Source: Candidatus Poribacteria bacterium
GTDB lineage: Bacteria > Poribacteria > WGA-4E > WGA-3G
Reading direction: 5' to 3'
NCBI GenBank assembly: GCA_026706025.1
Contig: JAPOZO010000002.1
Location: forward strand, 1-64,000
DNA: 64,000 nt
Part shown: positions 4,832 to 15,095 of the stretch, piece after piece
How the letters are laid out: each line of letters opens with the position of its first letter
How positions within the stretch are numbered: the stretch's first letter is position 1
The notes under the pieces: model-generated
Databases searched by the model: none
Told to the model about the DNA's origin: nothing
Seen by the model: only the letters and a program-made list of their open reading frames with translations
Position numbers and translations under genes: made by a program

Positions 4832-5140
4832 GTGGCACAAACCAACTCGCAAGGTCCTAAACACAGCACTGATAAGGAAGTTTTCTTACTAACAATTATT
4901 CAAGAGAACTCGCAATTGCCGGAAAAAGAACAGCAGCGGTATCAGCAACTATGGCGCAAGTGCGAAGATGAAACTCTAAGTGAAGATGAACTGATAGAAT
5001 ATCAGGCATTGTTGAGCCAATTAGAAGCCCAGAACCTGAAGCGCATTAAAGCACTCACCGCCCTAGCTAAAAGCAGGGGAAAAACCTTAGGTGAGATTAC
5101 TGCCGAACTGGGATTAAAAGAGGGAAGTAATGCCTTCTGA
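4832..5140 (+). CDS. Small helical protein preceding HNH endonuclease
   Basis: A 102-residue, strongly charged, mostly helical protein, GTG start with an AAGGAGGG ribosome binding site. Residues 25-70 (PEKEQQRYQQLWRKCEDE, then LSEDELIEYQALLSQLE) look like a helical hairpin, followed by KRIKALTALAKSRGKTLGEI, which resembles a DNA- or protein-binding helix pair. The 3' end overlaps the HNH gene by 11 nt, so the two are translationally coupled. I recall the same two-gene arrangement in cyanobacteria. The function is unknown; a partner or antitoxin-like regulator of the nuclease is possible. Confidence 0.65.
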   Translation: MAQTNSQGPKHSTDKEVFLLTIIQENSQLPEKEQQRYQQLWRKCEDETLSEDELIEYQALLSQLEAQNLKRIKALTALAKSRGKTLGEITAELGLKEGSNAF

Positions 5141-5555
5141 ATCCGTCCCTGCTGCTTTACGTCGCCGTGTCCGAGAGCGGGCGAACGGGCTTTGCGAGTA
5201 CTGCCGATCTTCTGATAATGTCAGTAATGCTTCCTTCCATTGTGATCACATCCTCCCACGAAATGCTGGCGGAAAAACCGAATTAGCCAATTTGGCATGG
5301 GCGTGCCCATGGTGCAACACACATAAACACACTAAAATATATGCCCCCGATCCACAAACAGGTCAACGGAGTCCACTCTTTAACCCGCGGACTAAACGAT
5401 GGAAACGGCGCTTTATGTGGAGTGAAAATCTCCTTTATATTATCGGACGCACGCGGACAGGTAGAGCCACAGTTGATGCTTTAAATATGAATCGTATTGA
5501 ACATGTTAACCGGAGAAAGTTGTTAATGTTCGCGGGAGAACATCCACTCATATAA
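5130..5555 (+). CDS. HNH endonuclease
   Basis: A 141-residue stand-alone HNH nuclease. The zinc-binding pairs CEYC (about 23) and CPWC (about 57) bracket the active-site motif HCDHILPRNAGG, and the expected Asn and His follow in WCNTHKH. The C-terminal half (DPQTGQRSPLFNPR, then GRTRTGRATVDALNMNR) is the conserved tail seen with cyanobacterial HNH proteins. It overlaps the upstream small gene by 11 nt. Cytoplasmic, predicted to nick or cut DNA. Whether the pair is a selfish cassette, a toxin-antitoxin module or a defence gene is not decided by the sequence. Confidence 0.85.
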   Translation: MPSESVPAALRRRVRERANGLCEYCRSSDNVSNASFHCDHILPRNAGGKTELANLAWACPWCNTHKHTKIYAPDPQTGQRSPLFNPRTKRWKRRFMWSENLLYIIGRTRTGRATVDALNMNRIEHVNRRKLLMFAGEHPLI

Positions 5556-5613
5556 GACATTTGAAGAAAAATAATATTATCATACTCCTATGGAGAAAAA
5601 CAGGGAAAAGATC

Positions 5614-6834
5614 ATGAAAAACTACACACTCATTCTTATACTCCTACTTGCCACCATCTCCTGCGCAAGTGCCGAAGATCAGGCAGATTACAGCGACGAC
5701 AAAATCCGTACTCTACTGCCCTTTGATGCGATTCCCGCGATTACTGAACCCCAATTCGTTTCTGCTGGTGCCGCAAAATTAGACCCGGATGCCCCCGTCA
5801 TCGGCGTAACCTTCAACGACGAAAGCCACGCTTACTCGCTCTATCTGCTCAACGGACACGAAATTGTCAACGATGTTGTGGGCGGATTGAACATCGCCAC
5901 GACGTGGTGACCGCTCTGCAAAACGGCTATCGTGTATAGTCGCGATCTTGACGGTAAGACGTATACCTTCGGTGTGAGTGGTAAATTGTGGCGGGACGCG
6001 CTATTGATGTACGACCATCAGACCCGTTCCCTCTGGTCGCATATCACTGGGGAAGCGATACAAGGGCCCCTTACCGGTAAGCGGTTGAAGATGCTCGCCT
6101 CCATGCCGCAGATTGCATGGAAAACATGGCAGCTAAACTATCCGAAGACCCAGGTGTTGTCTGTACCTACGGGAGGTGGCATGCGCGAGAGCAGAAGCCA
6201 AGATGCCTACGCAGACTACCATGCCAGCCGACGTGCCGGTGTCAGCGGCATGGAATATACCGATAATAGGTTACCCAATAAATCCCTCGTGATCGGTGTT
6301 CAACTGCAGACTAAAGATGGTGCTCCTGGGCGTGATGGTGCTGATGGACAGGACGGTGCCGACGGCGGACGTGGTGGAGATGGTGGAGACGGAGGTGCCG
6401 GTGGACGCGGTGGAGATGGTGGGGACGGTGGAGATGGTGGACAGGACGGCACTGCTGGACAAGATGGTGCTCCTGGACGGAGTGGTAATTTCGATCCCTA
6501 TAACACACAGTTTCGCGCGTACCCGTTGACACACTTTGCCGAAACTACCGTAATCAACGATATGGTTGGCGAGGTGCCATTGCTAATTTTCCACGATAAG
6601 GTATCGTTCGCAACGGCTGTTTTTAAGCGGAATGTCGCGAAAGATGTGCGAAACTTTCGTTCTCAAGATGGGCATTTTGTAGAGGATAACACCGGAACAC
6701 GCTGGAATCTGGTCACAGGTGAGGCAACATCAGGTAAAGATAAGGGAAAACGTTTAGAACGCGTTCCCGCCGTTAATATCTACTGGTTCGCGTGGGCACG
6801 GTATTATCCGCAAACAACAATTTACCGTCAGTAG
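5614..6834 (+). CDS. DUF3179 protein with collagen-like insertion and in-frame TGA (candidate selenoprotein)
   Basis: A secreted DUF3179 protein of 406 residues if TGA at 5908-5910 (codon 99) is read. Residues 1-20 form a signal peptide (ILILLLATISCASA, cleavage before Glu). DUF3179 shows two repeats: the first has AYSLYLLNGHEIVNDVVGG, then ATTW-TGA-PLCKTAIVY, then TFGVSGKLWRDALLMYD; the second has FRAYPLTHFAETTVINDMVG and ends in WFAWARYYPQTT. The family normally reads TYCPLC, so the TGA replaces the first Cys and gives a UxxC motif. Between the repeats is a 56-residue Gly-x-y tract. The start at 5614 is chosen for GGGAAAAG upstream; 5590 is possible. Function of DUF3179 is unknown. A nonsense mutation is the alternative. 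Confidence 0.7.
5924..5942 (+). promoter_or_regulatory. Candidate SECIS-like hairpin after TGA of the DUF3179 gene
   Basis: CGGCTATCGTGTATAGTCG folds into a 7-bp stem (one G-U pair) with loop CGUGU, 21-25 nt after the in-frame TGA. Distance, loop size and a G within the first two loop bases fit published descriptions of bacterial SECIS elements. It lies inside the coding frame, as expected for bacteria. Confidence 0.5.
6319..6486 (+). repeat. Collagen-like Gly-x-y coding repeat
   Basis: In-frame run of GGN-led triplets encoding 56 residues of Gly-x-y (GAPGRDGADGQDG, then many GGDGGDGG units, then GAPGRSG). It sits in a loop between the two DUF3179 repeats and is acidic and glycine-rich. Slippage-prone, so its length probably varies between strains. 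The repeat also creates long open frames on the other strand, which are artefacts. Confidence 0.85.
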
Positions 6835-15061: not shown

Positions 15062-15095
15062 GGTGTTTCCAAGTTTGACTAAAGTTGGAAACACC
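15062..15095. promoter_or_regulatory. Inverted repeat upstream of toxin-antitoxin genes
   Basis: Perfect 11-bp inverted repeat GGTGTTTCCAA/TTGGAAACACC with a 12-nt spacer, ending 10 nt before the antitoxin ATG. The position suits an operator for autoregulation by the antitoxin or a structured mRNA leader. Confidence 0.5.

Follow-up and report, generated by a model that had tools for sequence, protein, structure and literature searches.

The gene at positions 5614–6834 of the 64,000-nucleotide Candidatus Poribacteria stretch analysed here (hereafter the window) almost certainly encodes a genuine selenoprotein in which selenocysteine (Sec) takes the place of a cysteine. This reading draws on comparative sequence evidence, namely the conservation of an in-frame TGA, the frozen codons that follow it, a covarying bSECIS hairpin and the presence of tRNA-Sec, selA, selB and selD. 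Since the exchange of Sec and Cys marks a reactive residue, DUF3179, a family without assigned function, gains an active site that can be tested. Far from being a stray case, the Sec form occurs throughout a phylum associated with sponges and the ocean and is found again in some 15 phyla, and such genes would be split in two by ordinary annotation.

Gene structure and the internal TGA

With TGA read as Sec, the gene and its parts are laid out as follows.

5614..6834, + strand: DUF3179 gene, probable selenoprotein; 406 amino acids, one internal TGA, stop codon TAG
5602–5605: AGGG, plausible ribosome-binding site serving the ATG at 5614
5614..5676, + strand: hydrophobic N-terminus MKNYTLILILLLATISCASAE, likely export signal as judged by eye
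5725..6177, + strand: N-terminal DUF3179 repeat, residues 38–188, with H82-E83 and U99-P-L-C102
5908..5910, + strand: UGA, probable Sec codon (U99), position 1 of the CPLC motif
5917..5919, + strand: TGC, second Cys of the motif (C102)
5924..5942, + strand: putative bSECIS hairpin within the coding sequence; stem 5924–5930/5936–5942, loop CGUGU 5931–5935
6319..6486, + strand: Gly-rich collagen-like insert between the repeats, residues 236–291, predicted disordered
6502..6828, + strand: C-terminal repeat of the same domain, residues 297–405, with FHDKVS at the equivalent site and without Cys or Sec

The window protein matches Pfam DUF3179 (PF11376) at 1.1e-75 (255 bits against a cut-off of 27), and the match spans the TGA, whose surroundings read IATTW-U-PLC-KTAIVYSR. 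A preliminary description of this DNA had placed the TGA at 5908–5910 exactly at the first Cys of the family's motif. The 406-residue reading (TTW-U99-PLC-K) bears this out, and when DUF3179 homologues are aligned at the motif the relatives indeed carry Cys at the U99 position. A Pfam scan of 65 full-length members gave no credible domain besides DUF3179, and a search for a relative of solved structure returned Gly-rich chance matches only.

The gene contains an internal duplication, with 26% identity between its two halves over 112 columns (E = 4e-10). At the site equivalent to U99 the second repeat has mostly Asp, Asn, Ser or other residues, with Cys in just three of the listed copies; this repeat has lost the Cys/Sec centre and probably has a structural role. 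The collagen-like insert is found in the window gene and a few relatives (e.g. G073, G045), and most poribacterial orthologues are without it, their matches stopping at residue 237 and restarting at 297. At the N-terminus, AlphaFold2 predicts a helix at residues 5–13 and disorder after it.

Conservation of the UGA codon in Poribacteria

An orthologue with exactly one in-frame TGA is present in 65 of 85 genomes of the phylum, the window's own genome included, and the TGA is therefore neither a frameshift nor an error. Throughout these 85 genomes every full-domain match of at least 60% identity carries the in-frame TGA, and the stop-free full-domain matches are paralogues of at most 47% identity. 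The UGA thus lies at the Cys position of the homologues and is conserved among orthologues. Three further Poribacteria genomes (G002, G007 and G008) carry a TWUHLC form. The recurrence of TGA at this codon in other genomes, a point raised in the preliminary description, extends from these 65 genomes to about 15 phyla; neither of the observations it had named as contrary, an unrelated residue at this position in relatives or absence of the TGA from independent sequence, was found.

Fifty-one distinct poribacterial orthologues were compared codon by codon, as nucleotides. Codons +5 to +9 past the UGA are near-fixed as ACG GCT ATC GTG TAT, four of them never changing as long as the amino acid is unchanged, and GCT being found in 49 of the 51. 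Mean codon entropy from +5 to +11 is 0.42 bit; 62 other conserved codons average 1.34 bit, and not one of them is so low. As judged from these nucleotide sequences, the freezing of codons after the UGA is selection on RNA rather than on protein.

The candidate bSECIS hairpin

The hairpin (CGGCUAU-CGUGU-AUAGUCG) has a 7-bp stem and a 5-nt loop and lies 20 nt past the UGA, with its loop at +21 to +25 nt, just where the preliminary description had located a hairpin with loop CGUGU. The published bSECIS model describes a loop of 3–9 nt with a G in the first two positions and a stem of 4–16 bp, 16–37 nt from the UGA, and the window hairpin lies within it in loop, G, stem and spacing. Set against the model's folding-energy limit of −7.5 kcal/mol or lower, the 48 nt from the UGA fold at −11.5 kcal/mol (z −0.38) and the bare 21-nt hairpin at −6.3 kcal/mol (z −2.0). 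Local folding energy is unremarkable by itself, and the case for the hairpin is a comparative one. An Rfam scan over positions 5500–6200 gave no real match.

For the covariation test, 64 distinct sequences from many phyla, among the matches listed, were placed in an ungapped alignment. The seven stem pairs are formed in 85.9% of cells versus 71.5% after shuffling, and changes on both sides of a pair occur in 56 cells versus 16 in the shuffled alignments, with none of 500 shuffles reaching 56. The covariation score is 0.400, compared with 0.05–0.09 when the partner strand is slid by 1–3 columns. Pairs 18–34, 20–32, 21–31 and 22–30 alternate among standard pair types and, as read from the listed sequences, switches between AGY and TCC serine codons preserve the pairing. 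Across phyla, 94 of 114 sequences among the matches listed have CGUGU as their loop, and the G of the loop is invariant. Five to seven of the seven pairs are formed in 107 of 113 Sec sequences among the matches listed but only one to four in Cys homologues, a contrast that comes partly from amino acids (Tyr versus Phe, Ser/Ala versus Asp); these differences are what a SECIS element in a coding region would impose.

Selenocysteine machinery

In the window's own genome selA, selB, selD and tRNA-Sec all score above their cut-offs, and the tRNA-Sec gene (78 bits) directly adjoins selB on contig 84. The selD gene of this genome (contig 56:238667-239590, locus L022) itself has one in-frame TGA, and SelD is therefore probably a second selenoprotein of this genome. 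Among the matches listed, selA is above its curated cut-off in 26 of 31 genomes with Sec-DUF3179. A selA match in Zixibacteria (G086:C64:9741-11075) contains one in-frame TGA, which is either an error or a real feature. A scan of the window for other genes split by TGA gave one weak and unconvincing candidate, at 15076.

Distribution across phyla

A degenerate exact pattern (T-x-TGA-P/H-L-C-x-x-A/G-I/V-...) run over named genome contigs matched at least 115 stretches. Among the matches listed, all read as the Sec-DUF3179 motif in an open frame except L171 (Companilactobacillus), a chance match in a 46-residue frame that was left out, and all 65 of the 65 full-length proteins scanned match Pfam DUF3179. 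The listed matches represent about 15 phyla: Poribacteria, Acidobacteriota, Chloroflexota (SAR202, Anaerolineae, Dehalococcoidia), Planctomycetota, Verrucomicrobiota, Zixibacteria, Marinimicrobia, Methylomirabilota/NC10, Rokubacteria, Tectomicrobia, Nitrospinota, Calditrichota, Eisenbacteria and Myxococcota/'Deltaproteobacteria'. Because the pattern fixed the TGA, it was rerun with this codon left as TGN over 392 Planctomycetota and 400 Chloroflexota genomes (792 in total), and 12 of 12 matches had TGA. DUF3179 is also present in Haloferax volcanii, in a Cys-type form.

For a tree of domains, 87 of them Sec and 33 Cys, the motif was masked. On one side of a branch with 99% support are 81 Sec rows, drawn from many phyla, and most of the Sec forms found fall in one cross-phylum clade. 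At least two changes between Sec and Cys are forced by starred branches and three by parsimony; this count is a lower bound because the Cys rows come from Poribacteria and Chloroflexota only.

Motif variants and Cys-type relatives

Motifs of the Cys homologues are CPLC (42), CPEC (3) and CSEC, CPLT and CPRT (one each), and three DPRT paralogues lack the Cys. Position 1 is Cys or Sec in nearly all N-terminal repeats, and the window protein has the CPLC-type motif with U at its conserved first Cys. The wider family can do without the second thiol, since non-Sec CPLT and CPRT members exist; that the fourth residue can be Thr in Cys-type members agrees with the UxxC/T motif under which the family has been listed (see below). 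The aligned Sec sequences among the matches listed all have E83, T97, U99, L101, C102, L125, D134, W141 and G151; that C102, T97 and L101 never vary is set in part by the search pattern itself.

H82 pairs with UPLC and R82 with UHLC. This second Sec form, ATWUHLC, with His for the motif Pro and Arg for His82, was seen at L065, L066, L067 and L149 and also in Planctomycetota/Verrucomicrobiota loci such as L105, L111 and L145. At L113 a Cys-type DUF3179 gene (ITYCPLTGS) is directly upstream of the Sec-type gene, 441–1524 nt upstream of the Sec codon, and at L191 two Sec-type copies lie near each other. Three Chloroflexota loci (L231, L232 and L233) have second DUF3179 paralogues with DPRT for CPLC, in which the Cys of the N-terminal repeat has been lost too.

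Predicted fold

The AlphaFold2 predictions are of high confidence, with a mean pLDDT of 85 for the whole protein and 94 for the N-terminal domain. When both AlphaFold models were compared with the PDB by Foldseek, the top matches were mainly Rieske domains (5bok, 2qpz, 3c0d, 5cxm), the best having probability 1.00, E = 6e-3 and TM 0.61 by target and that of the other model probability 0.99 and E = 0.064; no thioredoxin-like protein was among the top 50 PDB matches of either model. The predicted fold weakly resembles Rieske domains, and not thioredoxin. We treat this likeness as a lead because the Foldseek E-values are not below 1e-3 and the profile comparison was negative: hhalign of Sec or Cys profiles against ten Rieske domains of the same genome gave no support, with probability below 1%.

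In Rieske domains the second cluster box is CPxH. It is possible, although we doubt it, that DUF3179 is a Rieske-fold derivative with a rebuilt [2Fe-2S] site, in which box I would have changed from C-x-H to x-x-H-E and box II from C-P-x-H to U/C-P-L-C/T, with Sec as a metal ligand or catalytic selenol at the place of a cluster Cys. Such a derivation concerns chemistry and not Sec insertion, and is compatible with the gene encoding a selenoprotein. In addition to the Foldseek ranking of both models, the matching strand-CPL-loop-strand pattern speaks for it, as does the H82–U99 spacing of 17 (counted by hand), which a typical Rieske ferredoxin also has between its box I His and box II Cys; the occurrence by clade of H82/P100 versus R82/H100 suggests that positions 82 and 100 touch. 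Against it are the E-values (6e-3 and 6e-2, both above 1e-3), the profile result and the ligand boxes themselves, since C-x-H plus C-x-x-H is not found: the box I Cys is absent, the box II His is replaced by Cys, and H82 is Arg in the UHLC clade.

A fuller picture that we rate as rather improbable would make DUF3179 a duplicated Rieske-fold domain whose iron–sulfur site was exchanged for a Cys/Sec centre (His/Arg-Glu, Sec, Cys) and which works after export as a selenol redox enzyme; Sec would be common to all sampled members of a single clade, either ancient or widely transferred, that covers at least 12 phyla. The literature searched held no paper joining 'Rieske-like' with DUF3179. To our knowledge no earlier selenoprotein class has a Rieske fold and selenium chemistry is not known there; if the likeness is true, this would be, as far as we know, a new fold for selenium chemistry.

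Gene neighbourhoods

Neighbours of the window gene, named by eye from their translations (HNH nuclease, SDR and PhyH-like), are uninformative on a redox role, and the neighbours conserved in Poribacteria (SDR, PhyH-like and peptidase genes) were judged likewise; antisense open frames in the poribacterial neighbour analysis were taken as artefacts. In three Chloroflexota loci a DsbD_TM/CcdA-like gene is directly upstream of Sec-DUF3179 (L133:1942-3630, L175:6019-7490 and L156:2130-2849), and in L133 and L175 a redoxin gene comes before it. The L156 protein itself matches no Pfam model and was assigned through its homology to the L133 and L175 genes. The DUF3179 copies at these three loci differ in their hairpin region, where the loop is UGCCU, and fall outside the main Sec clade. 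At four other loci (L096, L140, L164 and L183) Sec-DUF3179 is found near mutually related methyltransferases, with radical-SAM genes at L096, L140 and L183 and DUF3641 at L140 and L183; we read the methyltransferase and radical-SAM genes as a possible ArsM/ArsS-like arsenic cluster. The CcdA/redoxin and methyltransferase neighbourhoods both hint at chemistry of thiols or metalloids; neither is general.

Sec might bind or detoxify metals or metalloids (As, Hg) instead of serving thiol redox, as the four methyltransferase loci would suggest and as some other selenoproteins do in Hg/As resistance (PMC13188914). We consider this unlikely, as the loci are only four, none of them is poribacterial, and no metal-resistance gene was seen near the window copy.

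Proposed mechanism

The product is most likely, as far as comparison can tell, an exported selenol/thiol redox protein, and we lean with some reserve toward a redox role. Comparison of the sequences indicates that SelB and tRNA-Sec decode the UGA at 5908 as Sec under the direction of the hairpin 20 nt downstream; this hairpin lies within the coding sequence and dictates the codons there. In the predicted structure Sec, which belongs to the first tandem repeat, sits on a loop between two beta strands; a Cys follows three residues later, and the invariant Glu83, itself preceded by His82 (Arg in the UHLC clade), comes 16 residues earlier. The selenol of Sec would be the reactive centre in an oxidoreductase, periplasmic or anchored in the membrane and presumably exported by virtue of the signal judged by eye, that may cycle through a U99–C102 selenenylsulfide and in some lineages may receive electrons from a CcdA/DsbD-type thiol relay.

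Against a redox role, only the three Chloroflexota loci, which fall outside the main Sec clade, were seen to have the CcdA/redoxin gene order, and against a redox pair, some members of the wider DUF3179 family lack the second Cys. We found no biochemical demonstration of selenium or redox activity anywhere in DUF3179 in the literature. The preliminary description had taken the UxxC motif as a hint that DUF3179 proteins use their CxxC pair chemically; this is plausible, but the CPLT and CPRT members, the lack of thioredoxin matches and the weak likeness to Rieske domains instead keep it from being secured.

Other readings of the TGA

As an ordinary stop or an assembly error, the TGA would leave a broken or split gene, and a standard gene caller would indeed give two open reading frames, 5590–5910 and 5932–6834; this is vanishingly improbable in view of the same TGA in 65 independent genomes of the phylum and in about 15 phyla, the frozen hairpin codons and the full Sec machinery. 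TGA has been reassigned in some bacterial lineages, but genome-wide reading as Trp (or Cys) is equally hard to credit here: the gene at 4832–5140 in the window ends in TGA, the 406-codon frame has its sole TGA exactly at the conserved Cys, the tRNA-Sec scores 78 bits, and the adjoining codon uses TGG for Trp. Conservation and machinery rule out a pseudogene, a sequencing error and code reassignment.

Comparison with known systems

DUF3179 (PF11376) has been listed as a predicted selenoprotein family with the motif UxxC/T, credited to Zhang & Gladyshev 2007, in review tables that give one DUF3179 example each and no function (PMC9312934; PMC13188914). The selenoprotein part of the preliminary description stands and its novelty does not. 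In the literature searched, with the 2007 paper known through these reviews, we found no poribacterial clade, UPLC/UHLC sub-forms, SECIS covariation, cross-phylum clade, internal duplication or Rieske-like fold hint for DUF3179. New here are the breadth, the SECIS covariation and conservation of the RNA signal, the duplication and the fold hint; the family claim itself was already known.

The window protein shares with the listed family both the Pfam family and a Sec motif of the same UxxC kind. With Rieske ferredoxins and NirD the predicted structure would share a weak fold similarity, a CPL-C loop in place of CPL-H and the 17-residue spacing, whereas there is no recognisable sequence homology to DUF3179 and two of the four cluster ligands are replaced. 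Thioredoxin-fold UxxC selenoproteins have the UxxC motif in common with it, but in DUF3179 the motif is predicted to lie between beta strands and not at the start of a helix. Cys-type DUF3179 proteins (CPLC/CPLT/CPEC) have the same domain architecture and place of the CPLC motif, with same-phylum paralogues at about 40–47% identity; they differ in a TGY codon, in the absence of the hairpin (one to four of the seven pairs) and in having mostly Phe-Asp rather than Tyr-Ser/Ala past the motif. From known bSECIS elements, finally, the hairpins of the window family differ in having one near-fixed loop, CGUGU, across phyla.
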